A stretch of DNA of 59,410 bases, taken from assembly GCA_007713595.1 (NCBI GenBank), contig VMRY01000014.1:1-59410 (forward strand), read 5' to 3'. Origin of the DNA: Sedimenticola thiotaurini. GTDB taxonomy: Bacteria > Pseudomonadota > Gammaproteobacteria > Chromatiales > Chromatiaceae. Below are positions 35,987 to 51,528 of this stretch, one piece after another. The notes beneath the pieces were generated by a model. The model did not search any database, had not been told where the DNA came from, and saw only the letters and a list, made by a program, of their open reading frames with translations. Numbering within the stretch: the first letter of the stretch is position 1; the number at the start of each line of letters is the position of its first letter. The translations under genes were made by a program, and so were the position numbers.

Positions 35987-36616
35987 ATGGCCAGTAAAAT
36001 TATCTCAAATACGAACAATCTTACTGAACTGTCCGTAGAACAAATCACTGAAGCCAGAGTAACCGGCTGCACACCCGCGATACACTTGAAAGTCTGCCAT
36101 CGATACTTGTTACCCAGTCTCCTCTTTGCTTTGGGTGCACTATTGAGTGCGTCTGCCTTGGCGACGCCGATTCACTTATTGTTCGAAAGGGATGCGGACG
36201 GACAGGCCGGGAATGAGCTGGCGGTCGTTTCCTATCCCGATTTGCCTTCGCTAATCAGCAGCACCAGCTCTTTCACACAGTTTACCCAAGTGGATGTCTC
36301 CAGTGCCTTCAGTGTCGGCGGTATTACCTTTGACGGTAGCGCCTATCGCACCCTATTTGAAAGGGATGCCGACGGACAGGCGGGAAATGAGCTGGCGGTC
36401 GTCTCCTATCCCTCCTTCGCGGATCTGATTGGCAGCACCAACTCTTTCACACAGTTTACCCAAGTGGATGTCTCGAGCGCCTTCAGTGTCAGTGGGTTTT
36501 ACTCTGACCCCCCGGAGAATCAGAACGTTAGTGAACCGGTGACGCTCAGTCTGCTCGTTTTAGGTCTACTTACAATAGGCCTGGATAGTCGAGTGCGAAA
36601 AAGATTGATCATATAA
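35987..36616 (+). CDS. PEP-CTERM-like exported protein with internal tandem duplication
   Basis: The 209-residue protein has a 38-residue polar leader, then a hydrophobic signal (YLLPSLLFALGALLSASALA). Two copies of a ~58-residue unit follow, each with LFERDADGQAGNELAVVSYP and SFTQFTQVDVSSAFSV. The C-terminus is SEPVTLSLLVLGLLTIGL and then RVRKR, the proline-hydrophobic-basic layout of PEP-CTERM sorting signals. Such proteins are processed by exosortase and sent to the surface or matrix. GGAG lies 9 bases before the ATG. No exosortase is in the window. Confidence 0.75.
   Translation: MASKIISNTNNLTELSVEQITEARVTGCTPAIHLKVCHRYLLPSLLFALGALLSASALATPIHLLFERDADGQAGNELAVVSYPDLPSLISSTSSFTQFTQVDVSSAFSVGGITFDGSAYRTLFERDADGQAGNELAVVSYPSFADLIGSTNSFTQFTQVDVSSAFSVSGFYSDPPENQNVSEPVTLSLLVLGLLTIGLDSRVRKRLII
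36182..36497 (+). repeat. 174-bp tandem duplication inside the PEP-CTERM-like gene
   Basis: Copy 1 starts at 36182 and copy 2 at 36356, a spacing of 174 bases (58 codons). Long stretches are identical at DNA level, for example the region encoding FTQFTQVDVSSAF. Differences are clustered in the middle of the unit. Copy 2 lacks the last few codons. Confidence 0.85.
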
Positions 36617-36764: not shown

Positions 36765-37568
36765 TTACACCTTTGGTTTGATTGCCTCGATTGCTGCAGA
36801 AACAACATAATCCTCTATCTTACTATCAGGTAGCCAGTTTCGAATAAATTTTTTACTCTCATCTTTTGGTTTGATCTCTATTTCAACAAAACCAGCATGT
36901 TTGAGCATATCTTCAATATCATGAACTGATGAAGCCCCAGATAGACATCCAGTTAACAGTTTCATGTCATTTCTTGCTTTCTCAGGGATTTTAGCAGTCG
37001 CTACAACATCTGATATTGCCAATCGTCCGCCAGGTTTGAGAACCCTGAAACATTCTTGAAATACCTTCGCTTTTTCTGGCGACAAATTTATAACGCAATT
37101 GGAAATAATTACATCCACTACTTCATCTGCTACAGGCAAATGTTCTATTTCACCAAGACGGTAATCAATATTTCTGTGTTCAACCTTGTCTATATTTGCA
37201 CGAGCTTTCGTCACCATTTCTGGTGTCATGTCAACACCGATAACCTGCCCTGATTCTCCAACTTTCTTAGAAGCAAGAAAACAGTCAAATCCGCCACCAC
37301 TGCCTAAGTCTAAGACAGTTTCTCCCAATTTCAGTGCGGCTATTGCCATTGGGTTTCCACAACCTAACCCCATATTTGCACCCTCAGGTACCTGATTTAC
37401 ATCATTGCTTGAGTAGCCAAGTTCCATTGTGGTGATTTTTGCATCGGGAAGAGACCCAGTGCAGCATGAGGACTCAGTACCGCAACACGACGAACCAGAC
37501 GACTCGGCCACCTTGCCATACTGTTCACGAACGCTTTTGCGAATATTGTCGTTTACTAATAGTGTCAT
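36765..37568 (-). CDS. arsM: Arsenite S-adenosylmethionine methyltransferase
   Basis: The 267-residue enzyme methylates As(III) to methylated arsenicals. It has the SAM-binding loop LDLGSGGGFD at residues 87-96 and three cysteines at conserved ArsM positions: C70 (GLGCGNP), C158 (SNCVINLSPEK) and C208 (LTGCLSGAS). An extra N-terminal pair of CC motifs (28-29, 35-36) could bind arsenic first. GGAGA precedes the ATG. It lies 82 bases downstream of sigZ on the same strand. Confidence 0.93.
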   Translation of the reverse strand: MTLLVNDNIRKSVREQYGKVAESSGSSCCGTESSCCTGSLPDAKITTMELGYSSNDVNQVPEGANMGLGCGNPMAIAALKLGETVLDLGSGGGFDCFLASKKVGESGQVIGVDMTPEMVTKARANIDKVEHRNIDYRLGEIEHLPVADEVVDVIISNCVINLSPEKAKVFQECFRVLKPGGRLAISDVVATAKIPEKARNDMKLLTGCLSGASSVHDIEDMLKHAGFVEIEIKPKDESKKFIRNWLPDSKIEDYVVSAAIEAIKPKV

Positions 37569-37650
37569 TGCTGTCTCCTGAATTAAGGTTAAATGAATAG
37601 TACAACCTCATAGACGGAGATATTTGAAAAAGGACGCAAACCTTATTAGG

Positions 37651-38196
37651 TTAGCAATAATTACAATCTTTATTCTTCTTAACATATGAAACCAACTGAT
37701 TGTTTTTGTTGATCTCTATTTGGCAACAGTCATGCAGCATGTTTTTTAATAAAGCTCTACCTCTTTGTACTCTTGATTTTGCACCAGACAATGAAAGATT
37801 TTCGATTTCGGCCACTTCCTTTTGGGTTTTGTTTCCTATTTCTGAAAGCAGGACAGCTTTTCGATATTTATCAGGCAGTTCATTAACCATTGGCTCAAGG
37901 CATGATGATAATTCTTTCCTGATTATTTCTTCTTCGTTTGGTTCTGGCTGTTCGATCCAGTCTGGCAGCTGTTCTGTTAGTCTTCTTGAGCGATAATGGT
38001 CAATTACTGTATTTCGAGTTACCTGATACAGCCAGCTCTCAAGCTTTACATTTTCCTTCAATGAATCAAGTCGATTATGTATTTTTGCGAACACGTCCTG
38101 GAGAATATCTTCCACTACATCTTCAGCAACTTTGCTTCTTATGAAGGTAGTTAACCTCATGTGGTATTCATGCCAGATTTTTTCAGTTGTTTTCAT
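37651..38196 (-). CDS. sigZ: RNA polymerase sigma factor SigZ (ECF family)
   Basis: The 181-residue sigma factor has region 2 (residues ~5-70, with DILQDVFAKIHNRL and LYQVTRNTVIDHYR) and region 4 (LPDKYRKAVLLSEI, QKEVAEIENLSLSGAKSRVQRGRALLK). The C-terminus adds two cysteine motifs, HDCCQIE and DCNYC. The ATG at 38196 is preferred over an upstream GTG at 38220. It is followed by arsM, so it may sense arsenite or thiol stress through the tail and activate arsM; this is inference. Confidence 0.9.
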   Translation of the reverse strand: MKTTEKIWHEYHMRLTTFIRSKVAEDVVEDILQDVFAKIHNRLDSLKENVKLESWLYQVTRNTVIDHYRSRRLTEQLPDWIEQPEPNEEEIIRKELSSCLEPMVNELPDKYRKAVLLSEIGNKTQKEVAEIENLSLSGAKSRVQRGRALLKNMLHDCCQIEINKNNQLVSYVKKNKDCNYC

Positions 38197-38533
38197 ACTG
38201 GTTCCGTAGAGACATAACACTGTTTTTCAGCGTCACATAAACCTATTTAGCCGATGCTATCCGCTTTTTAATAATCAAAATTGTTTATTATAATCTTAGT
38301 GATTACAAGATGTTATTTTTCTTTTCGGTAAACACTATAAACGGGTAATAAAACACCTGGCGCTGAACTCGATCAGCCAACATCTTATTCACTTCCTTCA
38401 ATTTAACCAATAGCACCCCATTCGGTTGAATACAGAAGGATTAATGCAAAGTGTAGATATTTTTAAACTGAATCTATGGCCAAGAGCATGAATGCTTTTT
38501 TAGTGGGTGAACATTTAGACCACCTACAATCAA
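38197..38533. other. Intergenic region upstream of sigZ
   Basis: This 337-base AT-rich stretch lies between the end of the TIR gene and the start of sigZ. I see no gene, no clear sigma-70 promoter and no repeat. The sigZ promoter must lie here or further upstream. Confidence 0.5.
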
Positions 38534-40576
38534 TCACTTCTGCTGATAACTGACCAGTTCAAAAGTATCTGTGTCTATGGCCTGGCCTGATGCTGAGATT
38601 GTATTGCGAACCATCTTCACGAAACGTTTAACTTCTTTGGCGTACCAGATACGGTACGTAACCCGCACTGGTTCACGACTGGCCTCTGTCTGACTGCCAC
38701 TCGAATTTCTGGAGCTTTGTAACGTGATTTTCAGCGCATTAAACGTACCAGCAGGCACTGTGATGGTTTCAGTGTCGTCTGCTTCTCCCTGAGTATTCCA
38801 GCCTGTCCAGAAGTTATTGGTATCAGGTGTGGGTATACCTCGCCACTCTGAGTTTGCATCGAGTTCATCAAAAGCATAAAGATAGGGACTGAATTCAGTA
38901 CCCATCTGATTGGATTGTGTGACATAGGCAACGGGGCCACGCACAAACCGCTGCCCGAGTTGCTTGCGTGCATTGCTATCTACCTGTGTCAGCGTCTCTT
39001 GAACAGCGTTATCTTTTACTGACAGCACAGCGACTTCGATGGTGTGTTTAGGACTGGATGCCCAGCGCCCACGGATTTTATAGATCCATTTATCGCCTAC
39101 ATTGGGTAACTTGCTGTCAATAATCACATCGGGAGCCGGCTTGGCTGGAATAACAACGGGCTGGGGAGGTGACTCAGCTGTTTTTTCTGGTGTAGCTACC
39201 AGACTATCAGTTATTTTTTGATTGCCGCTCTGTGCCACAAGCTTGAAAGCAGTCGTGCCTTCAAGCACAACGATGACACAATCTTTTTGTAGATTATTTA
39301 ATTGACCAGGCCGAGGCTCAATAACCAGCTGCTGGGCACGCTCCACTTCGTAGCAGAGCCTGGCCCGCTTGCCACTTACCTTGCTTGTAAAATGAAGTAT
39401 CTTGGGAATCACCACCTTGGAAATAGGGGGGGCAATCGGTTTGGTTATTGGCTTAACAACTGAACCTGGCACAGGTTCCGGTGCCACAACGGGTGACGAG
39501 GGTGCTGCAGTAATAACAGCAGGTAGCGCCCTGACAATAGCGGACAGGGATACTGTAACAGGCGAATCATCAGGGCCGGTTATCTTTAACTCGGTATCAA
39601 GTTGGCCTTCACTGCTAGGCGCAAACCGCAGTTCAACAACACAACTTTCATTGGGCGAGAGATTGTCGGCACAGTCGTGATCTATCGAAAGGCTATTTGT
39701 GACTTCATCCGCCAGCAGTAATCCTGGTATTGGTATTATTGCGTTGCCACTGTTTGTGAGTGTGAGTGTTGCCTGTGCAGTACTGCCTAACATGACCTTT
39801 CCATAATCAATATGTAGCGGTTCAACCTCAAGTCTTCCTTGGACAACAGGCTGATCAGGTACAGACGGTTGTGGTGGTGTAAGAGTGGAAGTGGCAGGTG
39901 CTTTTACAGCGGCTATTGTGGGTGGGAGTTTTGGCTTCTGCTGAGAAACAGGTTGTTTCAATTGCGTGGGTGAGGCAAACCAGAACCCCAGCATGATCAC
40001 ACAGACCAAACCAAGAACAGTAAAAATGATCCACTTTTTATTGCTTGGTTCACTTGAAATCTTAGAAGCACTGCTCTGTTTCGTCTTACTAGGCTGGGCA
40101 GCGTTAACACCTTCAGAAAGATAGATCTTCTCCAGCGCGTCAATCAGGTTACCCGTGCTCGACTCCCACTGTTTGTGTCTAATCTCAATGGCCTGACGAC
40201 GACTCAACCCGAGCAGTTCGTCAGGCAGTTGATCAGCCCGTGGCATTAATGCACCATCCAGCAGCACTGGTACGACACGAATGTCCCGCTTCAGGGCAGT
40301 ACTGGTTTCTATTCGAATAAAATCATTCGGATCATCCAGCCTGCGATGGCCACTGCCATCATCAATCTCCAACCACTCATGACCAATAAGGACAATTAAA
40401 ACTTTGCAGGAGGTGACCGCACGCTCTATGGCATCAACAAAGTCAGTACCGGGATCGATTCCCTCAACATCCATAAAGACGCGCTCAGCACCAAAATGAG
40501 CGGCCAGACGATCATACAGCCGACCTGCATAACCAGCCGAGTCATCACGTCGATAACTGATAAAGATCCCGTCCAC
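38534..40576 (-). CDS. Membrane-anchored TIR-domain protein with an extracytoplasmic ASH-like region
   Basis: The 680-residue protein starts with a TIR domain (residues 1-152: IFISYRRDDSAGYAGRLYD, MDVEGIDPGTDF, VLIVLIGHEWL), with E90 in DFIRIETSTAL at the NADase-glutamate position. A polar linker and one membrane segment (182-202) follow. Outside are a proline-rich stretch, an ASPM-SPD-2-Hydin-like beta domain (LEVEPLHIDYGKVMLGSTA...LTNSGN...CVVELRFAPSS), a second proline-rich linker and a C-terminal domain with VPAGTFNALKITL. The start is GTG 40576 with GGAGGAG 7 bases upstream. It lies 67 bases after the haem-enzyme genes on the same strand. Confidence 0.85.
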   Translation of the reverse strand: MDGIFISYRRDDSAGYAGRLYDRLAAHFGAERVFMDVEGIDPGTDFVDAIERAVTSCKVLIVLIGHEWLEIDDGSGHRRLDDPNDFIRIETSTALKRDIRVVPVLLDGALMPRADQLPDELLGLSRRQAIEIRHKQWESSTGNLIDALEKIYLSEGVNAAQPSKTKQSSASKISSEPSNKKWIIFTVLGLVCVIMLGFWFASPTQLKQPVSQQKPKLPPTIAAVKAPATSTLTPPQPSVPDQPVVQGRLEVEPLHIDYGKVMLGSTAQATLTLTNSGNAIIPIPGLLLADEVTNSLSIDHDCADNLSPNESCVVELRFAPSSEGQLDTELKITGPDDSPVTVSLSAIVRALPAVITAAPSSPVVAPEPVPGSVVKPITKPIAPPISKVVIPKILHFTSKVSGKRARLCYEVERAQQLVIEPRPGQLNNLQKDCVIVVLEGTTAFKLVAQSGNQKITDSLVATPEKTAESPPQPVVIPAKPAPDVIIDSKLPNVGDKWIYKIRGRWASSPKHTIEVAVLSVKDNAVQETLTQVDSNARKQLGQRFVRGPVAYVTQSNQMGTEFSPYLYAFDELDANSEWRGIPTPDTNNFWTGWNTQGEADDTETITVPAGTFNALKITLQSSRNSSGSQTEASREPVRVTYRIWYAKEVKRFVKMVRNTISASGQAIDTDTFELVSYQQK

Positions 40577-40643: not shown

Positions 40644-41864
40644 TTATTTGGGATCATTAAAAACCTCAGCACCTGTCGGTTCCATATGGGCAACATCATT
40701 CATCTGTTGACGAAACCTTGACAGCTCAAAATACATGCGCCGACGTGCACGACTCTGATTACCAAGCGGTCGATGCTCAGGTATACAGTGCCAGGGATTG
40801 ATCTTTAGCTGTTTGGCAAATGCAAATTGCGCTTCTGATGTGAAATGTTGTTTGGCTATATGAATTGTTGCAGCGGGGATGTAGGGCGACAGTTTTTCCG
40901 GCCAGCGAACAGCTGCATTCTCTATGGGCATACGGTGTGGATCTGTCTGCACCTGAATCTGCAGATCAAACTCCACCGCCTTTTCATCCAGTGTTTTCAC
41001 CATATTGTCACGCAGATAATTAAATGGGGGTGAGCCAAAGGGCAGTCCAGGGATAGTGGTTGGCACCTCTGTTTTCGGTGCAAATGAGTACATCATGGCC
41101 TGTCCTTCCCCGAGAAGATAGGGAACGCAGCTGTAATAGCGATGACCCAAAGGATTAAACTGTGTTTCATTCCAGAGTGCCTGCATGATGAAATCCAGCA
41201 CGTGGGAGTCAAATGGGTTTAAAAAATAGTAGATCGGCATATCAACCAGACTCCAATACTGGAGCTTGGCATTCTCCCTCACATCCGGCGTTACAAAGGT
41301 GGGCGTGCAGACACCCATCATGTCCTGGGTAAACTGCTCTTCATCCATTAACTTTTTACCCGGTACATCCATTATCTTAAGTGCCATGCTGGAAAACCCA
41401 ACATCGCGAATATCCGCAGGCACATCAGGTCCGGGGCCCGAGTAACGTACATAGGCGGGATAACTGCGCTGGCTGGCAAAGATCCCCTGCCGCAGATGAT
41501 CGGGAAGATCTTCTCGAACAGTCACCGTGGCCTTTACAATACCGTGGGTTTTTGTATTCCCTCCCCGCTCATATTTACCGGGTTTGAAGTGGCCGCGCAT
41601 CTGATCCGCCATCAAATCGATAATGTCATCCAGTGCCTGCTCTTCCCAGGGGAATATCTTCTCCTCTGCCAGGCCCAGGCCATAGTCTGGGCGATTTCGG
41701 TTAATCAGATACTGTAACAAGTTAGCAATGGGCTCCCGTGTCAGACGATTAAGTGTGGGTCTGAAGAATGGTTCCAGTCGACGTTCTACATTAAGGCCAG
41801 CAACCAGTACTCTATGTAGCAGGTCAAGTGCGGGATAGATTCGCCTGCGCAGTGCCTTGTTCAT
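40644..41864 (-). CDS. Catalase-like haem protein, copy 1 (cytoplasmic or peripheral)
   Basis: The 406-residue protein belongs to the catalase-related superfamily, shorter than true catalases. It has the distal histidine H107 in KTHGIVKATVTV. Near the C-terminus EHRPLGNQSRARRRMY supplies the proximal arrangement RxxxY (R374, Y378). No signal peptide is visible. Relatives include peroxidases and allene-oxide-synthase-like enzymes that rearrange fatty-acid hydroperoxides. Its start overlaps the DyP stop by 4 bases (ATGA), so the two are translationally coupled. Confidence 0.85.
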   Translation of the reverse strand: MNKALRRRIYPALDLLHRVLVAGLNVERRLEPFFRPTLNRLTREPIANLLQYLINRNRPDYGLGLAEEKIFPWEEQALDDIIDLMADQMRGHFKPGKYERGGNTKTHGIVKATVTVREDLPDHLRQGIFASQRSYPAYVRYSGPGPDVPADIRDVGFSSMALKIMDVPGKKLMDEEQFTQDMMGVCTPTFVTPDVRENAKLQYWSLVDMPIYYFLNPFDSHVLDFIMQALWNETQFNPLGHRYYSCVPYLLGEGQAMMYSFAPKTEVPTTIPGLPFGSPPFNYLRDNMVKTLDEKAVEFDLQIQVQTDPHRMPIENAAVRWPEKLSPYIPAATIHIAKQHFTSEAQFAFAKQLKINPWHCIPEHRPLGNQSRARRRMYFELSRFRQQMNDVAHMEPTGAEVFNDPK

Positions 41865-43399
41865 GATTCAGCCCTGCCCCTGGCGTTAGAGAAACTGGCC
41901 ATGTAGCGCAATGCCCGAATACCGGGCATAAAGAAATAGGCGCCACCCTGAACCGTGACGAACTGGGGCATTCCGTGAGTACAGTGTGCAGGCCCATCCG
42001 CATCTGGCTGGCTGAAGTGATTTGTCGACGCGCCATTGGAGAGAGGCTGTCGGTTTCCCAACAGCGGATCCGTCTCGTTTTGAATGCCGCCAAACTTGGC
42101 ACCCATTGACCAGGCATTCTGTACAAACTCAAACTGACGCGATATATTGGCGACCAGACAGATGAAGTGCAGGCCCCGCTCTACCTGTTGCACTTCCGGT
42201 TTCAGCGCCTCTTCTTCCGATAGCTGTTCACCATAGGCCCGCCCACGACGCAACAGCCGATGAAATCGGGTAGAGGCGATGAGATCATCGCCAGGATGCT
42301 TACGTCCAAAGCCAAAAATACGTACCAGTCTTGACAACAGCCCGGTCACACCCGGTGGGAAGTCACCCGTCCGGGGATTGGAACGTCGTATGTGAGAACC
42401 GACAGGACACTGCTGGCCATGCGGATCATTGTCAAAATTAAATTGATTTAAGACCGCCTGTTTTCCACTTGTTTTAATCCCTTCTATGGGTTGCACAACT
42501 CGTTCCACAAGTGGCGTACCATCACGTTGACGTCCCACCATGCTGCTCGCCAGTTGTTCTCGCTTCTCATGATCACCTTGTGCCTGCTGATCCATGAATT
42601 TCCAGAAAGCTGGCACATCCTGATGTAGCTGGCGCATAACCAGATAACTGCCGTTACGTCCAAGATCACGCAGATGCGGCTGCTCTTCTGCTGTTGGTAA
42701 GAGTAGCGACTGGGGGTCACTCGCCGGATCAATCAAAGGCCGTTCGGTATACTGCCCATACTCATTAGGATAGCCGAGCAACAGCTCCCCGAGCGAAAGC
42801 AGATTGGAAAAACGGTCCCGTTGATGAAGATCCGTACTCTGTTCCCTTCCCCAGTCAATATCAGGTTGACTGATACCATCGGTAAAGCCAAACGGTTCGA
42901 TACTGTCATTATCGGTGGTGTCGAGGTCGGCAATAATTTTAAATGCCTCTCCGAAGCATTGATCCAGGACATTTTCAGACCATGTGGTCAATTGATCTGT
43001 TTTGGCATACAGCATTAATAACAGATGTGGCACTGCATCTGCAGATCCGCCCCACGCCCATTGATCCGGTGCATTATCTGCCACATCACCCAACCGTCGT
43101 GAACGATTACTGTCTGCCGACATGCCAACGATAAACTCATCTGAGAACTGCTCGATCAGATCATCACACACACCCAGCTCTCTTAACCCTTCGGCACTTA
43201 TAGCGATCTGCAGGGCTGTTTGTGGCGGTGACTCTGACCATTCAGCACTGTTCACCGACGCACCTCTGATCCACTCGCACGCCCGCACTGCATCGACAAT
43301 GGCCAGCAATAAAAACCGCGCCTCTTTCAGCCCACCATGGCCAAAGCGAGCCAGCGCCTGTATGTCACCGTATTCTGGAGCAGCGGGTCTATGCATCAT
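41861..43399 (-). CDS. DyP-type haem peroxidase
   Basis: The 512-residue peroxidase has the DyP signature GFTDGISQP (residues 171-179; catalytic D174). The haem-ligand histidine is H334 in CPVGSHIRRSNPR, followed by FHRLLRRGRAYG, typical of the long (class C/D-like) DyP proteins. There is no signal peptide. DyP enzymes oxidise bulky substrates with hydrogen peroxide or organic peroxides. It lies 9 bases downstream of a membrane protein gene and overlaps the catalase-like gene. Confidence 0.93.
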   Translation of the reverse strand: MMHRPAAPEYGDIQALARFGHGGLKEARFLLLAIVDAVRACEWIRGASVNSAEWSESPPQTALQIAISAEGLRELGVCDDLIEQFSDEFIVGMSADSNRSRRLGDVADNAPDQWAWGGSADAVPHLLLMLYAKTDQLTTWSENVLDQCFGEAFKIIADLDTTDNDSIEPFGFTDGISQPDIDWGREQSTDLHQRDRFSNLLSLGELLLGYPNEYGQYTERPLIDPASDPQSLLLPTAEEQPHLRDLGRNGSYLVMRQLHQDVPAFWKFMDQQAQGDHEKREQLASSMVGRQRDGTPLVERVVQPIEGIKTSGKQAVLNQFNFDNDPHGQQCPVGSHIRRSNPRTGDFPPGVTGLLSRLVRIFGFGRKHPGDDLIASTRFHRLLRRGRAYGEQLSEEEALKPEVQQVERGLHFICLVANISRQFEFVQNAWSMGAKFGGIQNETDPLLGNRQPLSNGASTNHFSQPDADGPAHCTHGMPQFVTVQGGAYFFMPGIRALRYMASFSNARGRAES

Positions 43400-43408
43400 G
43401 TTCCTGTG

Positions 43409-44710
43409 TCATACCTGAATCTCCGCCAGCCACTGCCTGATCTCATCATCGTTGTCCTGACGGATTTCAACACCCTCACGAATACGACTGTTTCGCGCCA
43501 GATCAAAGGCGGTTTTACCCGGATAGGCCTTGTACCAGACCTGGGTCGGTAACTGACGACGGCGTAAGAAATGTTTGAATTTCTGCTCCCGCTCTGCACC
43601 GGCCTTTATCAACCAGCGAGTGGATGGATAACCTGCCCCGTTGCTGAATACCAGATTCAAACCCCAGGCGACCTTATTGATAAAGTCATCCATATAACTC
43701 TCCAGGCTGCCATCATAGTTACTGGCAAACAGAAGACGCTGGTTATTATCCATCATCACCCAACGAGCAAAGTGAATGGTTTGCACCCGGGTCAAATGAC
43801 CACGGTTATAGACATGTATGGATGCATAATCGAGTAACCAGAGAAAAAGCCGAACAGCATAGCGCCTGAAGGGTTGCGGTTTCACTTCTCCGTATGCGCT
43901 GAAGGGATTGGTCACATCATGATCTTCCCGTTGTGACAGCCGCTGTATATGTTCCCGTGGCGGGCGTGACACCGCTTCAGGATCACTCTTTTCAAGACTC
44001 CGCAACCGATAGATGAGATAGGGCGAAAACAGCAGAAATATTGGTGAAAGAGTAAGAAGAATCAGCGGCACGCCCAGTTTATGCACAAGATTTTTTAACC
44101 ACCAGCCTATCGGTGTTGACAGTGAAGGTGTCAGGCTCAGTCGCGCAGCGGCCTTTTCCTGTTCGACAAATGACAAAAGTTGCTGGCGAATCGCACGTGG
44201 GTTATCACGACCAACGTCATTCACTATACGTTCAAGTTGCGTTGATAATGCCTGGTGCAGCGCCTCCTCCTCACGTATCTGAGTAACGGTACGACCGAGC
44301 CAGTTTATATAATTGGCAGAAGGTTTGATATTGCGCGCCTGTAACCAGTTCACCAGGCTTTCATGTTCAGCTGGAAACGGTTCGCAGTGGGAAAAGACGC
44401 TTCGCAGTTGCGGCCCTGCCAGCACTGCCATTTCTGCAATAAACGTATCCGAAGGTCCATCGCAGTCACCCAAAAAAACCAATCGTGGTGGTACTTCCGG
44501 AAAAGAGAATACATCCTGTTCTGCAACAAGTGTCTCCAGAATAAGGAAACGTGCGACATGCAGACGATCAAATCGCGTAAAAGGAAAGCCTCTATTGTGT
44601 GGATCCAGCTCGCCCGGCTCGCTGTTCATCGCTTCAAGGAGCGTGCGCAATTGTTCCAACTGTCCAGCGGCAATTTTCGCAACAATCATGAATGTGGATT
44701 GTGGTGTCAT
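43409..44710 (-). CDS. Unknown membrane protein with an internal duplication, in the haem-enzyme operon
   Basis: The 433-residue protein has no named function that I recognise. Its N-terminal half carries LHVARFLIL, then RLVFLGDCDGPSDTFI. The C-terminal half repeats the pattern as IHFARWVMM, then RLLFASNYDGSLESYM, so two related ferredoxin-like (dimeric alpha-beta barrel type) modules are likely. Between them lies one hydrophobic segment (~212-234). Dimeric alpha-beta barrel modules are also the building block of DyP peroxidases, encoded just downstream. The ATG at 44710 is used; the longer frame starts at a TTG. Confidence 0.7.
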   Translation of the reverse strand: MTPQSTFMIVAKIAAGQLEQLRTLLEAMNSEPGELDPHNRGFPFTRFDRLHVARFLILETLVAEQDVFSFPEVPPRLVFLGDCDGPSDTFIAEMAVLAGPQLRSVFSHCEPFPAEHESLVNWLQARNIKPSANYINWLGRTVTQIREEEALHQALSTQLERIVNDVGRDNPRAIRQQLLSFVEQEKAAARLSLTPSLSTPIGWWLKNLVHKLGVPLILLTLSPIFLLFSPYLIYRLRSLEKSDPEAVSRPPREHIQRLSQREDHDVTNPFSAYGEVKPQPFRRYAVRLFLWLLDYASIHVYNRGHLTRVQTIHFARWVMMDNNQRLLFASNYDGSLESYMDDFINKVAWGLNLVFSNGAGYPSTRWLIKAGAEREQKFKHFLRRRQLPTQVWYKAYPGKTAFDLARNSRIREGVEIRQDNDDEIRQWLAEIQV

Positions 44711-44739
44711 GCCATGCAACCTGCCTCATCAAAAAGCTC

Positions 44740-45195
44740 TTATTTTGTTCGATTCTGCGTAAGTGCAAAATCCAGTACCCGGGTCTTTTTCCACCAGACT
44801 TTGCCGAGATAAACACCGGGTTCTACTTCACGGATTTCATCCCGGATAACCTTGGCAAAAAAAGAGGTTTTGGAATAATCAATTACAATGGTCTCCTTAC
44901 CATCCATCCAGCTTTTATCCCGATACACCTTGGCAACGACAAACGTCAGACTGAATGGAGAGACCTTGTTAACCAGGATGCCGGATTGATAATCCGGTGG
45001 AAAGAGGTCAAACACCTTACCCTGCCAGGCAAAAGCGCGTGCGATAAATGCCAGTGTTTTGGAAAACAGTGAACCCGTTACAATGGCTGTGCCACGGGTA
45101 TCACCTGAAGGGATGGAACCCGCTTCAGCATTGCGATAGATTTCATCCAGCTCATCACGTGACATAACCAGCCACTTTGCTACCCGTTGATTCAT
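44740..45195 (-). CDS. Unknown 151-residue protein in the haem-enzyme operon
   Basis: No signal peptide or domain is recognised. The sequence is beta-rich, with VFDLFPPDYQSGILVNKV, FVVAKVYRDKSWMDGKETIVIDYS and EVEPGVYLGKVWWKKTRVLDFAL, a pattern compatible with a small lipocalin-like or barrel fold that binds a hydrophobic ligand; this is a guess. Its ATG overlaps the stop of the secreted catalase-like gene by 4 bases, and GAGG precedes it, so it belongs to the operon. Confidence 0.7.
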   Translation of the reverse strand: MNQRVAKWLVMSRDELDEIYRNAEAGSIPSGDTRGTAIVTGSLFSKTLAFIARAFAWQGKVFDLFPPDYQSGILVNKVSPFSLTFVVAKVYRDKSWMDGKETIVIDYSKTSFFAKVIRDEIREVEPGVYLGKVWWKKTRVLDFALTQNRTK

Positions 45196-46235
45196 GGTGC
45201 CTCTTTATTGCGCAATTGAGATGCCTTGAAGTAGGTTTCCCGCCTTACCTCATTCATTCGGCCCAGGGGTTTGTGCTCTGGCAGACTCTGCCAGGGATTA
45301 AAACTGACCTTTTCGCAGGCTGCCAAGGCATCGTCTGTATCAAAGTCCTGGTCTTCAATCGTTATGGTCGCCAGGGTCACAAATGGAGAGTCTGCCTCAT
45401 CCCAGATTACCGAGGCATCTTCAATCGGCATCGCTTCCGGATCGGTTCGTTTTTGTACGCCAAACTCCAGACAGGCCGACGCTTGACTGATATGTTGCTT
45501 CATTGCAGAACGTAATTGATTTTCGCCAGCGACGCCCTCAACCGACACGGATTTTCCTGCACAGGGCGTTACCGAGTATTTAACCGCCGTCCCATCATCA
45601 CTGCCGTGCCTGAAAGGTGTAGTACTCCAGTAACGAATGGCGAATGGATTGCTGTGTACCGCCCTGGCTTTAAAAAGAATCCACAGCGATTTAAGGTGGG
45701 GATTTAGCGGATTGATGAAAAAACCCGTGATTTTATCTTCCTGTCGCGCTCTGATGAAATCAAGAAACTCTTCCGGTGTAGCCACAAACAGTGCCGGGTA
45801 ACTGTTCAGTAAAAAATCCTGTACACCTATCTCACCCCAAAGTGGATCACCTTTAACATCAAAGACCTTTATAGACAAACCTCGAATATCTTTTTTCGTA
45901 TCATCCTGTTCACTGGCATTGGCAAATCGTAACAAAGCGCGATAACTTTCAGGTTGTGCAAATAGCCCCTGCTTAAACTCCTTGGCTATTCCATCATGCA
46001 CCTTGAAGGTAGCCGCGAAACATCCCAGGCTTTTTGCTTGATTAAAACGTGGCATGATCCCATTGCTTGCGCTGGATTGAGTGATCGCAGCAATACGCTG
46101 ATTCATCTCGGCCACCAACTGCTCAGGGCTGACCCTCTCATCTGCTGCTATAGCCCCTGTCATGAAACCACTTACCGCTAGAGGTATCAGCGTCCGTATT
46201 ATTAGGTTAAATTGAATTCTCATTGACTGACTCAC
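45192..46235 (-). CDS. Secreted catalase-like haem protein, copy 2, lacking the distal histidine
   Basis: The 347-residue precursor has a signal peptide (cleavage after MTGAIA) and then a catalase-like domain. The segment aligned with KTHG of copy 1 reads KSLGCFAATFKV, so the distal histidine is replaced by L70. The proximal RxxxY remains (R331, Y335 in NEVRRETYF), as does NPWQSLPEHKPLG. Haem binding is therefore expected but normal catalase chemistry is not. The GTG at 46235 with AGGGAT upstream is used; ATG 46223 is an alternative. It starts 8 bases after the large haem peroxidase gene. Confidence 0.85.
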   Translation of the reverse strand: MSQSMRIQFNLIIRTLIPLAVSGFMTGAIAADERVSPEQLVAEMNQRIAAITQSSASNGIMPRFNQAKSLGCFAATFKVHDGIAKEFKQGLFAQPESYRALLRFANASEQDDTKKDIRGLSIKVFDVKGDPLWGEIGVQDFLLNSYPALFVATPEEFLDFIRARQEDKITGFFINPLNPHLKSLWILFKARAVHSNPFAIRYWSTTPFRHGSDDGTAVKYSVTPCAGKSVSVEGVAGENQLRSAMKQHISQASACLEFGVQKRTDPEAMPIEDASVIWDEADSPFVTLATITIEDQDFDTDDALAACEKVSFNPWQSLPEHKPLGRMNEVRRETYFKASQLRNKEAP

Positions 46236-46243
46236 ATGTATCC

Positions 46244-49159
46244 CTATGGCCTGTCAGAGAAAGCCGGATCCGTTTCTGCACCCGAGCGTGGTTTCCAGGA
46301 GAGATCATAATATTCCCCGCGATCACGCGCCCAGGGGTCAAACGCATTTTTAACCATCATCAGTTCATCCTTTATTTCGGGAATATTTCGGATGAGCAGA
46401 CGCTTTAATGGCGACACTGCCACCTCATGCCCATTGACCTTGCCTGGTTCCAGACAGGCCTGGCTGCCATCGGGCAATTCACTCACCGGATAGGGACATT
46501 CCGACACAGGCCCATTATTCACCACCCAGTCATAGCCCAATTGCGAGTAGAACTCTGGCCGGAAACTGGAGGTAAAGAAGCGGTCACTGAACAGTCGCCT
46601 GGATGCATTGACGATAAAGATATGAAATTGTGTTTCAGAAATGGCAAAACCATGGGGCCGGGTGTACTCGGCCATCCAGCCCACGATGTTGTCTACATCT
46701 TCAATATTGTCCACCACCGAACCGTCTGGCTGGCCATGACAATCATTGATAAAACTGCCATCGGGATTTCGTTGCGCTGTGGAGATAATCTTGCTGGCAT
46801 CACACGCATGGTTACCGTAGATGCTGCGAAGCCGTTGCACGGTCTCCTCCTGATGCTTTCGCCAGGAGCTGTTTTCATCCAGACGATGGTCGACAAAATC
46901 ATCAAACCGGGTCAGTGTTTTTAGACCAATCTGTCGACGGAACTCATTGAATCGAGGAACGCCGCGTTCACGATCCCGCAAGATATCCAGTGCAATAATA
47001 TCCAGCGATTTAGTTTCAGATGCCAGATGAGGCATTGGCAGATTTTGTAAAAACAGCGGCGAGTTGCGTAACTGTAGCAGGCCCAAACGCTGCCGTCCCA
47101 TGCTCAGACCCCAGTTCTCAAGCCCCCGTTTGTGCATCTCTTCAGTAGCCCCTTTTCTCACTGTAGCGGCAACAGGTATCTTGAGTGTGATTTTATTCGG
47201 GTCGCTGGTAGTGCGGAACTCAATCAGATCAGGCGCCAGTGCATGTAGACGATAAACCGATGGGAACTCTTCAGGGAAATTGAACGGTGAACCAAAATGA
47301 TTTGTACCACCGTTGACATCCTCTTCCAGGTTATTCAGATCCCAAGCGTCATGCTTCCACCATAAATGGCCAGTCGGTTTTTTACTACCCAGCCCAAAGA
47401 TCCCCGCACCGGATGCAAATACCGAGTAAGCGCTGGCAGAGGCCTTGGCCTCAGATGATTGTCCCAGCATTTGCGCCAGTTTTGCTGAGGCCCGGCCAAG
47501 AAAACTTTGATCCTTGCCGGTTATACGCCGCAGAATTTGCGATACACGACTCTCCTCCTGATTAAATAATCCTGACCAGTTGGAGTTCATCCCTTTGTTC
47601 AATGCCTCGTTATAGAGCAGTTGCGTGGTCCATTCGATGGTATGAATCTTGGCAATCTCGGCAGAGACAACCAAACGGGCGGCCTGATATAACCGCTCAT
47701 CATCGACGTCTTTATAAGCGATCATCTGGTCAGGCTGACTGGGGTTACGTAGCCCGGAGTCTGCATCTGGCGTGTTGTTCTGTAATTCGCGGAAATGGTC
47801 AATGAAAGCGTTATGCTCTCTCGTAAACAAATTGTGATAGAAACTGAGACCAATATTCCAATTGTCCGGAAACGCCGCTGACTCCTGGCCCAACCACTGT
47901 GGCTGTACTGGACAATCTTCACTGTAGGTCACACAACTCGCCAGCAAGGGTAGATAGTTATCCTGCATCAACAGTTTGGCATTATCATTCGGATCACGTG
48001 CAACACGATGTAGCGAGACTTCATCATAGCCATAGATTTGTGAGGCATCCCACCAGGCCGTAACCTGATTCCCAGTTGTCTTATAAGCGCGTTTCAGGTG
48101 GCGCTTGCCCTCAAACTCAAAACTTTCTGGTTCGGTTGTTTCAGCATAGAGCGATGGCTGAGCACGATCCCCCGGACGACAACCCAGGTCCTGTGCCTCC
48201 GTTGAATCACAACCAACAGTCATCAGACTGTTTTCATTTAGCCCTTCGACTGTATGGGAGAACCAGTCATGGGTCATGAACTGAATCCAGAAGGCCGCTA
48301 GCACATTAAAGAAAGGTGCTTTTATGTAGTCGCAATTCACTTCCGTTGAATAATTGGCATCACCCAGTCCATTGTTACATCCATTGCCCGGTGTTTGTTC
48401 ACGCGTAAAGAGTTTGCGACTGAGGAGTTGCGGATCGGGCTTCATCAAACCAAGACGGCCGCCATGCCGGTTTCTGGTCAGTTCGGTTTTTTCCAGCCGC
48501 GGAAAGGTCTCCTCAAACTGGGCGTTCCGTGCAAACGGCATTCCGCTGGCGCCCATTCTTGGATTGGTCAGGTCATTGCAGATGCCGGTTAAGGTACGAT
48601 GGGTGATTAACTCACCACGGCACAACTGTTTTCCATCCCCACCTACCGCCATATAATCGGGATGATCTGGTGGGAGTTTCATCTCATCCCATACCGTATT
48701 GGCAGCACGCACAGGATCAGTGACAAACCGCTGGTAAGTGCTCTGGTCAAACAGATTGAATTTAATCAGTTCAATACGCTGATATTCCAGGTCCATCAAG
48801 GCACCATCAATACCCCGACCATCAGGAAAGATATGCTCTCCCAGACGTGTATTGGCTTTATCACCCTGGCTTTTACTCTGCTCATCGCCGTTGGCGTAGT
48901 AGTTCTGCCAATCGACCCAGGGGGTATTGCGATACTTTACAGCCTTGTCACCACCGCGACAGCGCGCTGTATCTTCTTCAACTTTACCAAGGAAACGTTT
49001 GGTTGGATCTTCAGCAATTTCGAGCAGACCCGAGGCGGCCATTCTCAGGCAAGCCTTTGTATCACTGTCAGCCAGAGCAGCGGAACTCCAGATAAACAGG
49101 CCACCTACCCCTGTGCAGACAGCAAGAACTGCTGTGCTGCATATATGCAACTTCTTCAT
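46244..49159 (-). CDS. Secreted animal-type haem peroxidase / fatty-acid dioxygenase homologue
   Basis: The 971-residue precursor has a signal peptide (MKKLHICSTAVLAVCTG, cleavage near SSAALA) and an animal-haem-peroxidase domain. FWIQFMTHDWFSH carries the likely distal histidine (H297) and YHNLFTREHNAF follows later. VYRLHALAPDL places Y636 three residues before H639, the Tyr-x-x-His arrangement of cyclooxygenase and alpha-dioxygenase, where His is the proximal ligand and Tyr the radical residue. A fatty-acid oxygenase role is thus possible. The ATG at 49159 has GGGGGGA just upstream. It is first in the minus-strand run. Confidence 0.85.
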   Translation of the reverse strand: MKKLHICSTAVLAVCTGVGGLFIWSSAALADSDTKACLRMAASGLLEIAEDPTKRFLGKVEEDTARCRGGDKAVKYRNTPWVDWQNYYANGDEQSKSQGDKANTRLGEHIFPDGRGIDGALMDLEYQRIELIKFNLFDQSTYQRFVTDPVRAANTVWDEMKLPPDHPDYMAVGGDGKQLCRGELITHRTLTGICNDLTNPRMGASGMPFARNAQFEETFPRLEKTELTRNRHGGRLGLMKPDPQLLSRKLFTREQTPGNGCNNGLGDANYSTEVNCDYIKAPFFNVLAAFWIQFMTHDWFSHTVEGLNENSLMTVGCDSTEAQDLGCRPGDRAQPSLYAETTEPESFEFEGKRHLKRAYKTTGNQVTAWWDASQIYGYDEVSLHRVARDPNDNAKLLMQDNYLPLLASCVTYSEDCPVQPQWLGQESAAFPDNWNIGLSFYHNLFTREHNAFIDHFRELQNNTPDADSGLRNPSQPDQMIAYKDVDDERLYQAARLVVSAEIAKIHTIEWTTQLLYNEALNKGMNSNWSGLFNQEESRVSQILRRITGKDQSFLGRASAKLAQMLGQSSEAKASASAYSVFASGAGIFGLGSKKPTGHLWWKHDAWDLNNLEEDVNGGTNHFGSPFNFPEEFPSVYRLHALAPDLIEFRTTSDPNKITLKIPVAATVRKGATEEMHKRGLENWGLSMGRQRLGLLQLRNSPLFLQNLPMPHLASETKSLDIIALDILRDRERGVPRFNEFRRQIGLKTLTRFDDFVDHRLDENSSWRKHQEETVQRLRSIYGNHACDASKIISTAQRNPDGSFINDCHGQPDGSVVDNIEDVDNIVGWMAEYTRPHGFAISETQFHIFIVNASRRLFSDRFFTSSFRPEFYSQLGYDWVVNNGPVSECPYPVSELPDGSQACLEPGKVNGHEVAVSPLKRLLIRNIPEIKDELMMVKNAFDPWARDRGEYYDLSWKPRSGAETDPAFSDRP

Positions 49160-49450
49160 AAGTCCCCCCATAATCCTTTAGGGTTTGGTACATTTCTGGA
49201 TTACTTAAAACCCAAGCCCATTATGCTTTCCTGCTTTTATGACTATTATCATAGTACAGCGTGATTAATTTCATAGGTGGTATTAAACTTATAATCATTG
49301 TACTGCGACACACTCCATCTAATATTTTGAGTGAACAATACATTGCTATTTGCAGTGTTTATAAAACATTTAGGCGTAATTTGCTTTAACTGAATTCTAT
49401 GTTTTTACATAGGGTTTTCTGCACCAAGGGCAAGGATTACCGAGGTTCGA

Positions 49451-50413
49451 ATGGAATCAACAGATGAGTTCTGGGGCTTTCTTGACCGTATGCCTTTACT
49501 GCTGCAGCAATACAGCACCCACTCTTATGTATTGCTTGCACTTCTAGGCATTGCCGGTGCTATTTTATTGGCATGGCATCTTTTCAAGCTAAAGTCTTCC
49601 GGTGAAGGCCTATCAAAGCTGATGTTTGCTGCAGGTGGAATGCTGCTGTTTTTATCCATCAGCGGCGCCATACTCAAAATCAGTTCTGAACTGGGTGAAC
49701 AGCAACAAGGCAAAGAGAACATCGCCCGTTTCCTGGAGGATAATCGCGTCGATAGCGATGAGCACTGGGTTATTATCGTCGACTTCACCAACCCTGTGGC
49801 CTCTCCTGATACTGAATCAGAGGTCAATACTCAGGATAAAATGCGTCTATTTGTAGCGGGAATAAAAGAGGTTCTGCTCGAAGACATCCCCGAAGATTTT
49901 TCACAGCCTCGTATCAAACTGCTCCCCACCAAGGACAGTCCCTGGAACAAGGGAATTGATGACAACAATTACGACGAAGTGATAGACAAGCTGAACGGCG
50001 ATGAGCTGATGTGGGGCGTCATTCATAAAGAGAGCCTTAACGGAAAGGCCTTTCTAGCCATCTCTGCCCAGCTGGGCAATACCGCCGGGCATGATCTGGG
50101 GCGCCAGGCTCCCCTGCACGATCTCGACCTGAACAGCGATCTACGTCGCGAGTTTCAATTTGATCGTGACGGCTACAGCCGTTTAATCGGGATGGTGATG
50201 CTGGGCATGGCACTTGAAACCGTACAACGTGCCGAGCAGATCCAAGGTGAGGGCCGGCGCAAAGAGTTCCTCAGAGCTAGCAAGCAGCTCACCGCCATGC
50301 GTAAAAAAGTCTCCGGGGCACGTGATGACCCTATTCTTAAACGCACCGTTTACAGCAGCCAGGTTGACGAATTGATCAGAAAGAGCGAACTTGAAGCGGA
50401 GGGCAGACAATGA
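49451..50413 (+). CDS. Membrane protein of unknown function, coupled to a TPR protein
   Basis: The 320-residue protein has two N-terminal membrane segments (~27-46 and ~56-76). A soluble region follows containing VIIVDFTNPVASPD and GRQAPLHDLDLNSDLRREF, then a basic C-terminal helix region. No family is recognised. GAGG lies 5 bases before the ATG. Its stop overlaps the start of the TPR gene (ATGA), implying a two-protein unit. It is divergent from the haem-enzyme operon; the 279-base gap between them holds nothing recognised. Confidence 0.75.
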   Translation: MESTDEFWGFLDRMPLLLQQYSTHSYVLLALLGIAGAILLAWHLFKLKSSGEGLSKLMFAAGGMLLFLSISGAILKISSELGEQQQGKENIARFLEDNRVDSDEHWVIIVDFTNPVASPDTESEVNTQDKMRLFVAGIKEVLLEDIPEDFSQPRIKLLPTKDSPWNKGIDDNNYDEVIDKLNGDELMWGVIHKESLNGKAFLAISAQLGNTAGHDLGRQAPLHDLDLNSDLRREFQFDRDGYSRLIGMVMLGMALETVQRAEQIQGEGRRKEFLRASKQLTAMRKKVSGARDDPILKRTVYSSQVDELIRKSELEAEGRQ

Positions 50414-51528
50414 AACGTCTTACTCTATGCCTTTTTGTCTTGTTCTCTGGCCTATTCATATTAACCACCAGAGCAGGCATACAGATTGAGGTAGTTGACC
50501 CACTCTATTTTGAGAAAAAACATGAGGTCATATTCCCCTGGGCTGATGCCAAATTGGTCACCTTTGAATTTGAAGCAGTCGAGGGAATCGAAGGTGGGAA
50601 GCAACGGGCAAAAGAGCTGCATAATCAATTCCTGCAAAAAATACAGGGCCTGCCCGGCGGCGCTATCCTCACCTTCCTCACACCAGAAGGACAACGCATT
50701 GAAAACTACCGCTTCACCGTAAAACAGGCGGCACAACAACAAAAAGCACAAATGAGCCTGTGGGGACGCATGTTTCCAGATAAGTCGGGGGACTCATTAA
50801 TCAATGTACGACTTGGATTGGTTGAACCACCGAATGGTATACAGGCTGCTTTTGAAAGCCGCATTGAAATGCCAAGAGGAGAACAGCCCATACGTGGATT
50901 TATCAATGATGAAATAACGCAAAAGCGTATCGACTTCCTGACAGTAAAAGAGTCCAACATCGCCGCACTGGCTGACTTTCTGTCTGGCATGGCCTTCTAC
51001 TATAAGGGTGCAAAAAAAGAGAACAGTCGCGCCATACAGTTACTGGAAACTGCCATACGACGGCTTAATAGTTATATCGACAATACCCTTAGTCAAGTCG
51101 ATTACTCGGCAGCCTCAGCCGCCCATCTCTATATCGCACGCGCTTACTTCATACTAGCAGACCTGGAGAGAGAGAAGCGTAAAGCTCACCGCTTAAACGC
51201 AGAACAATACGCAACAAAGGCCATCGATTTAAACCCCTACGAGCCTGACCCTTACACCGTTTTAGCCGTAATTCGATCGGCAACCGGACACACAACCCAG
51301 GAGATAGCGCCATTGCTCAAAAAAGCGGTATTACTCGCCCCTGGCAGTTTAACTGCAAGTTACAATCTTGCATTGGTCAACAGTGGAACCGGTCAATTGC
51401 AGGACGCAATACAGCGACTGGAGCATGTCGATTACCTGCAACAACAGGAGCAACAGCCGACATACAGGGAGTTGGATAAACTGCAGGATAAACTGCGTAC
51501 GATAAACAGTGACCGTCAGACCCACTAG
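50410..51528 (+). CDS. Exported TPR-repeat protein of unknown function
   Basis: The 372-residue precursor has a signal peptide (LTLCLFVLFSGLFILTTRA). A beta-rich N-terminal half follows, then a helical half with tetratricopeptide-like repeats (ADFLSGMAFYYKGAKKENSRA, YIARAYFILADLEREK, EQYATKAIDLNPYEPDPYTV, AVLLAPGSLTASYNLALV). TPR regions mediate protein contacts, so it is probably a periplasmic partner of the overlapping membrane protein. Confidence 0.78.
   Translation: MKRLTLCLFVLFSGLFILTTRAGIQIEVVDPLYFEKKHEVIFPWADAKLVTFEFEAVEGIEGGKQRAKELHNQFLQKIQGLPGGAILTFLTPEGQRIENYRFTVKQAAQQQKAQMSLWGRMFPDKSGDSLINVRLGLVEPPNGIQAAFESRIEMPRGEQPIRGFINDEITQKRIDFLTVKESNIAALADFLSGMAFYYKGAKKENSRAIQLLETAIRRLNSYIDNTLSQVDYSAASAAHLYIARAYFILADLEREKRKAHRLNAEQYATKAIDLNPYEPDPYTVLAVIRSATGHTTQEIAPLLKKAVLLAPGSLTASYNLALVNSGTGQLQDAIQRLEHVDYLQQQEQQPTYRELDKLQDKLRTINSDRQTH

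Follow-up and report, generated by a model that had tools for sequence, protein, structure and literature searches.

In the genome of Sedimenticola thiotaurini (GCA_007713595.1), we investigated a stretch of 59,410 nucleotides (nt; contig VMRY01000014.1, positions 1 to 59,410), here called the window. The minus strand of positions 40644-49159 carries six tightly packed open reading frames (ORFs) in the 5' to 3' order P6-P5-P4-P3-P2-P1 (Table 1). This block is real and conserved, and most likely encodes a lipid alpha-oxidation pathway. Counted from ATG starts, the gaps along the block are 20, -4, 29, 9 and -4 nt, the first one being 8 nt if P5 begins at GTG, which confirms the six packed genes with small gaps and 4-nt overlaps reported in a preliminary description of this DNA. 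The ATG start of P6 at 49159 is the end of the block; the ORF could begin at 49171, and the ATG start giving 971 amino acids (aa) is possible in five of five species. No Pfam family was found above the cut-off for P1, P3 and P4, and P4 has no NCBIfam match either. Against the nearest species, the ratio of nonsynonymous to synonymous substitution rates (dN/dS) ranges from 0.025 (P1, the lowest of the six genes) to 0.094, rough values since dS is 0.85-1.83; against a second species, dS is saturated for three of the six genes. Consensus scans were not informative, either for promoter-like sites (9 versus 11.4 in shuffled sequences) or for terminator-like sites (13 versus 8.1, standard deviation 2.8).

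Table 1. Genes of the block on contig VMRY01000014.1, in the direction of reading
Gene	Coordinates	Strand	Product
P6	46244..49159	-	alpha-dioxygenase-like haem protein (An_peroxidase), 971 aa
P5	45192..46235	-	catalase-like, 347 aa (GTG) or 343 aa (ATG at 46223)
P4	44740..45195	-	151 aa, without family; modest-confidence calycin/lipocalin-like beta barrel model
P3	43409..44719	-	436 aa (TTG) or 433 aa (ATG at 44710); ABM-like halves and hydrophobic helix
P2	41861..43399	-	DyP-type peroxidase, 512 aa
P1	40644..41864	-	second catalase-like protein, 406 aa

P6 matches PF03098 (Pfam, E-value 6e-65), and its closest solved structures are the alpha-dioxygenases 4kvj (5e-54) and 4hhr (2e-52), with lactoperoxidase far behind (1.7e-4). 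PMC8720084 gives H157, H382, Y379, H311, T316 and R559 as key residues of the rice alpha-dioxygenase, His311, Thr316 and Arg559 positioning the carboxylate and the alpha-carbon of the substrate. These numbers sit +3 in the 4kvj chain and were mapped to P6 accordingly, which gives H297 as distal histidine, H639 as proximal histidine, Y636 as radical tyrosine, and H506, T511 and R855 as the substrate-positioning residues. All six are kept in the 80 rows of the P6 alignment, made of the window and 79 of the 80 loci of the census described below (L124, where P6 is split across two frames, was excluded). The carboxylate residues of alpha-dioxygenases are absent from the two COX-like bacterial peroxidases compared.

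A plasmid protein of Calothrix sp. PCC 6303 has nine checked residues of the cyanobacterial alpha-dioxygenase CalDOX at their published numbers, and for this reason we took it as CalDOX; P6 and this protein agree at 12 of 12 key residues and, over 570 aligned positions, are 38% identical. By its sequence, P6 is an alpha-dioxygenase, predicted to hydroperoxidize fatty acids at C2, and fatty-acid oxygenation is the best reading of this protein. As described in PMC9305512, a 2-hydroperoxy fatty acid gives a Cn-1 aldehyde by loss of CO2, or a 2-hydroxy acid. Sequences of alpha-dioxygenases from Proteobacteria and Acidobacteria already appear in a phylogeny in PMC8720084. A plasmid collection searched with P6 returned 20 records, all below 60% identity and none covering 80% of the protein.

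The two catalase-like proteins are homologues (P1 matches the P5 of the window at 4.8e-36). P5 matches PF00199 (Pfam, 1e-7), and the best solved match of a combined P1 and P5 profile is the coral allene oxide synthase (cAOS) 1u5u (3.7e-10). We aligned 68 catalase-like rows, comprising 65 ORFs from the 80 P6 loci, P1 and P5 of the window, and L035. The position of the distal histidine is occupied by Gln in 35 of 35 P5 rows (Gln62 in the window, in 343-aa numbering) and by Asn in 30 of 30 P1 rows (Asn103), and the histidine is retained in the three outgroup rows (L035, L109 and L127). Together with the preceding residue, the distal pair reads Asn-Gln in all 35 P5 and Gly-Asn in all 30 P1 rows. 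The proximal haem-ligand motif Arg-xxx-Tyr (Y331 in P5, Y378 in P1) is present in 35 of 35 P5 and 29 of 29 P1 rows, the 30th P1 row stopping short of it. A profile alignment with solved catalases sets the Gln/Asn column on a histidine that we take to be their catalytic one. Five independent proteins outside the alignment concur, with Asn in the P1 of L152, L153, L156 and L157 and Gln in the P5 of L153.

The distal catalytic histidine of monofunctional haem catalases was found in none of the P1 and P5 rows (0/65), and the distal Thr-His connection, the published hallmark of cAOS and the coral hydroperoxide lyase, is replaced by Gly-Asn in P1 and Asn-Gln in P5. The K-T-H-G stretch of P1, which by eye resembled this Thr-His hallmark, was considered and rejected, its histidine lying four residues past the true distal position in the alignment with catalases and outgroups. 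Among 124 plasmid records matching the catalase family, the four proteins inspected all carry the distal histidine. A distal carboxamide would suit P5 and P1 to hydroperoxide chemistry.

P2 matches the C-terminal DyP model PF20628 (8e-6; 26.1 bits over a cut-off of 20) and remains below the cut-off for the N-terminal model PF21105 (22.5 versus 27.5) and for TIGR01413 (86 versus 100.5); among solved structures it matches 8re3 (2e-40). D174 and R384, presumably the distal residues of the DyP site, and H336, presumably the proximal histidine, are kept in 30 of 30 rows. The AlphaFold2 model of P3 (predicted local distance difference test, pLDDT, 86.2; predicted TM score 0.87) has two halves resembling ABM or dimeric alpha+beta barrels and a long internal hydrophobic helix at about residues 201-241. 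Its best Foldseek match is 9lmn (WhiE-ORFI, ABM/SchA-like; 1e-4, TM score only 0.38/0.45), which suggests that P3 is ABM-like. In L035 and L155, P3 is divided into two ORFs, and a partial match adjoins DyP in L034. For P4, the model is a beta barrel of modest confidence (pLDDT 69.7); the best Foldseek match is 4mve (Tcur_1030; 4.8e-5, TM score 0.62), followed by bile-acid-binding and lipocalin or fatty-acid-binding-protein barrels at E-values of 0.024 and worse, which point weakly to a calycin/lipocalin-like barrel. Profile searches against solved structures revealed no credible relative for either protein (best E-values 0.84 and 1). Both are rare: P3 was found in 5 of 369 genomes of the class and P4 in 4 of 398 genomes of the phylum, the genome of the window included in each count. 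The analysis suggests a role for these two unnamed protein families.

Within the genus Sedimenticola, the block is present in one shared order in five of nine genomes, counting that of the window, and was not found in the other four, one of which is 65% complete. A genome of the sister genus (G009) has a decayed copy, with P4 gapped, P3 cut, a remnant of DyP, a stop in P1, and P6 interrupted at contig ends.

Genome contigs scanned with P6 gave 122 relatives, the nearest ones being Sedimenticola, and the census was restricted to the best 80 of these (L050, L051 and L095 are the genomes G008, G003 and G001). No near-copies were detected among the 80 loci at a 98% test; L036 is the same record as L064. 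All six modules lie near P6 in 23 of the 80 loci, three of them from Sedimenticola, and a further full set was found in L153. As a control, six other genes of the window were each found in only 1 of the 80 loci, two of them at merely 28% identity. In the 49 loci where 6 kb or more of sequence follows P6, P5 is present in 30, P4 in 34, P3 in 26, P2 in 26 and P1 in 25, and all five partners in 22.

The order and strand are the same in 18 of the 23 full sets, although DyP is in two frames in L060 and P1 is cut by the contig end in L069. In the remaining five, all from Halomonadaceae, P6-P5-P4 is oriented away from P3 and from a gene that fuses DyP with P1. Full sets were found in Gammaproteobacteria (19), Desulfobulbia (3) and an unranked gamma symbiont (1). 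The reading in the preliminary description would have been refuted had the genes not co-occurred in other genomes; it withstood this check, as the set was found again in two phyla, with its order either fixed or rearranged. In a quick tree of P6, three Desulfobacterota (Thermodesulfobacteriota) rows fall inside a starred clade of 18 with Gammaproteobacteria. The record of one of the three Desulfobulbia carriers, Desulfopila sp. IMCC35006, names a strain in its title instead of a metagenome-assembled genome (MAG). Desulfobulbia are largely anaerobic, and a block with an O2-dependent oxygenase is odd in these kin of sulphate reducers (L056, L075 and L082).

P5-type proteins adjoin P6 in 34 of 34 cases, and P1-type ORFs adjoin P2 or P3 in 24 of 24, apart from five fused to DyP. 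There appear to be two units, P6-P5 and P3-P2-P1, with P4 adjoining either. In six loci (L063, L066, L070, L071, L073 and L074), the place of P3-P2-P1 after P6-P5-P4 is taken by a pair of genes from a single family; Pfam identifies the L066 pair as RoxA-like di-haem cytochromes, and the others were assigned by clustering (17 members in 10 loci). A MAG of Nitrosomonas communis (L120:4136-22723) has patatin, a second An_peroxidase, lipoxygenase, P6, a GMC oxidoreductase and cytochrome c, then P4-P3-P2-P1. In L032, patatin is followed by P4, P3 and P2, and no PF03098 match was found in that genome, which is 81% complete. P4-P3-P2-P1 lies between a GMC oxidoreductase and a putative esterase in L156, a locus that also has another alpha/beta hydrolase, and after cytochrome c and a GMC oxidoreductase in L157. 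P3-P2-P1 is found on a 12.7-kb contig (L152).

Several modules are fused. In the five Halomonadaceae loci (L091, L097, L100, L102 and L117; L158 duplicates the record of L117 and does not count as a further case), DyP and an Asn-type P1 share one frame, with about 880-1120 codons between stops. One frame of 1423 aa (L154:7879-12150) joins a cytochrome P450, a P3-like part and DyP. The Rhizobium phaseoli plasmid pRetR611c (L164:2768-5596) encodes a 942-aa fusion of catalase-like and alpha-dioxygenase domains, the latter with the 12 key residues, and a RoxA-like gene comes after it. In the plasmid collection, 16 records match at least 80% of the length of this fusion in one place; 10 are near-identical Rhizobium sequences and the rest, including Phyllobacterium and Nonomuraea, are 56-58% identical. 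On a plasmid of Methylobacterium currus (L162:1-2517), a COX-like An_peroxidase gene adjoins a catalase-family gene bearing the histidine, another dioxygenase-like and catalase-like pair.

The gene set, its conservation, the catalytic residues and the fusions are based on sequence, and we infer the substrates, the order of steps, the compartments and the products. We suggest, with a probability of about 0.6, that the block encodes a fatty-acid alpha-oxidation pathway of the oxylipin type. We favor this lipid reading because of the alpha-dioxygenase residues of P6, the fusions, the patatin, lipoxygenase and esterase neighbors, and the adjacency of P5 to P6 and of P1 to P2 or P3. P6, once exported, would oxygenate free fatty acids with O2 at C2 and yield 2-hydroperoxy acids. 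P5, likewise exported and bearing a distal Gln, would act on the 2-hydroperoxide, which it would reduce, isomerize or cleave instead of dismutating H2O2. The other four, P4 (a barrel, perhaps lipid-binding), membrane-bound P3, the DyP P2 and P1, would make up another unit, separable from the first and located at the inner membrane. Using peroxide as oxidant, it may oxidize or dispose of the product, be it a hydroperoxide, an aldehyde or a 2-hydroxy acid. The preliminary description had proposed a candidate oxylipin system that could oxygenate fatty acids outside the cell, a reading that is partly supported. Lipid chemistry is indeed likely, with a C2 hydroperoxide predicted from the alpha-dioxygenase type of P6, but the extracellular location would hold for two of the six proteins at most. 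By a hydropathy rule applied to the N-termini (no signal-peptide program was used), a signal-like hydrophobic N-terminus is found among 18 full loci in P6 (16/18) and P5 (14/18), and rarely or never in P4 (1/18), P2 (0/18) and P1 (1/18), while the helix of P3 is internal.

More tentatively, P5 and P1 could be two lineages of a new class of the catalase fold, having a carboxamide in place of the distal histidine and now acting as fatty-acid hydroperoxide isomerases or lyases in a modular machine. The P6-P5 front end would make and convert 2-hydroperoxy acids, and a mobile P4-P3-P2-P1 core would take the products of exchangeable front ends (alpha-dioxygenase, lipoxygenase or COX-like, GMC oxidase, P450). 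PMC13049297 describes a distal Asn by the haem iron in the plant CYP74 allene oxide synthase, in prostacyclin synthase and in fungal linoleate diol synthases. If our proposal is true, the carboxamide of P5 and P1 would parallel, in the catalase fold, the distal Asn of the plant allene oxide synthase and prostacyclin synthase. The invariant loss of the distal histidine in two catalase-fold families offers a direct test, H2O2 dismutation versus lipid-hydroperoxide chemistry.

Some observations weigh against the proposed alpha-oxidation pathway. Among the 49 loci with enough downstream sequence, 15 carry none of the five partners, and therefore P6 can work without them. The pairwise identities of P6 and of its partners correlate only moderately (0.48-0.67 in 17 full loci), so we do not claim strict inheritance of the block as one unit. 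In L156 and L157, P4-P3-P2-P1 lies beside GMC oxidoreductases with no P6 within the fetched 18 kb, and the unit may therefore serve other chemistry. The catalase half of the Rhizobium fusion retains the distal histidine, which indicates that the carboxamide is not required for pairing a dioxygenase with a catalase-like protein. P5 and P1 could be inactive, being devoid of this histidine, and according to PMC13049297 the distal Asn is dispensable in several of those P450 peroxide isomerases.

Plain catabolism or lipid clean-up is an unlikely alternative, in which P6 would shorten fatty acids for carbon or membrane turnover and the other haem proteins would only remove peroxides, with no signaling and no defined oxylipin. 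The DyP retains its catalytic residues, and the name of one carrier, Pseudomaricurvus alcaniphilus, hints at alkane use, as far as a name can tell. However, peroxide removal would call for working catalases, and the distal histidine is missing in all 65 P1 and P5 rows. The same absence would be expected if P1 and P5 were pseudoenzymes that serve their neighbors, without catalysis, as scaffolds holding haem, as carriers of haem or as sensors. We consider this improbable to a similar degree: the replacement is not random, being Gln in every P5 and Asn in every P1, Arg-xxx-Tyr is kept wherever the row reaches it, and P1 has the lowest dN/dS of the block.

It is also possible, but quite doubtful, that P4-P3-P2-P1 drives oxidations with peroxide in general, without specificity for lipids, and is fed by an alpha-dioxygenase, a GMC oxidoreductase or a P450. 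Its position beside GMC oxidoreductases without P6 in the fetched regions would fit, as would the P3-P2-P1 of L152 and the frame joining P450, P3-like and DyP parts, whereas the patatin, lipoxygenase and esterase neighbors and the lipocalin-like model of P4 (itself weak) argue for lipids. Chance neighbors or an annotation artefact, which the patchy distribution in the genus might evoke, can be dismissed, as the census refutes it through the order conserved in two phyla, the fusions, the purifying selection and the rarity of the control genes.

A TIR/choice-of-anchor D protein (38534-40576, same strand, 67 nt downstream of the block) was considered as a seventh member and rejected, since it is adjacent only in G000 and G008 of five species and was found in 1 of the 80 P6 loci. 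In G001, G003 and G004, its best match is elsewhere in the genome, and G001 also has a partial match, restricted to TIR, on the opposite side of the block. Of 10 genomes searched for this protein, 9 gave matches, many of which cover just the TIR part. On the other side, the divergent pair at 49451-51528 (unknown membrane and TPR genes) was rejected as well, being whole only in the nearest species; G001 retains a 46-residue piece of its first gene. Elsewhere in the window, 36765-38220 holds a SigZ sigma factor (NCBIfam equivalog) followed by a methyltransferase, arsenite-methyltransferase-like by eye, and the protein encoded at 35987-36616 repeats a segment internally and is, by eye, putatively PEP-CTERM-like.

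Among known systems, the cyanobacterial alpha-dioxygenases CalDOX and LepDOX (PMC8720084) are close to P6, as seen in the identity and key residues shared with the Calothrix protein, but P6 is 387 residues longer than CalDOX, has a signal-like N-terminus and lies in an operon with haem partners. Equivalent fatty-acid metabolism outside plants is stated as unreported in PMC8720084. In Nostoc punctiforme, a linoleate 10S-dioxygenase and a catalase-related hydroperoxide lyase are encoded by separate genes (Brash 2014, as described in PMC13049297). The likeness lies in a fatty-acid dioxygenase of the COX superfamily paired with a catalase-related protein, separately encoded, that converts the dioxygenase product. 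Compared by description and not by sequence, the systems differ in the alpha-dioxygenase residues of P6, with a C2 and not a 10S product predicted, in the distal Gln or Asn of the catalase-like partners, and in three further genes. The coral enzymes (1u5u) share the catalase fold and the hydroperoxide chemistry that we propose for P5 and P1, but the distal pair of cAOS is T66 and H67 (PMC5617202), and the partner in the block is a haem dioxygenase, not a lipoxygenase. The preliminary description had invoked such coral partners of lipid oxygenases, which P5 and P1 do not match at the distal pair. The P450 isomerases have the distal Asn in common with P1, but in a P450 fold with a thiolate ligand, which makes them an analogy only.

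The six-gene set, catalases with distal Gln or Asn, and the fusions were not described in a literature search covering titles and the openings of abstracts, with most subscription journals outside its coverage. The preliminary description likewise knew of no described system with this gene set. A dioxygenase with a catalase-related partner is already known from Nostoc. The pairing principle is therefore not novel; new variants are the dioxygenase of the alpha type, the pair of carboxamide catalases and the DyP core, which can be separated. To our knowledge, the bacterial oxylipin routes known so far are single enzymes or pairs, and the block, if our reading is true, would be a conserved multi-gene route built on an alpha-dioxygenase.

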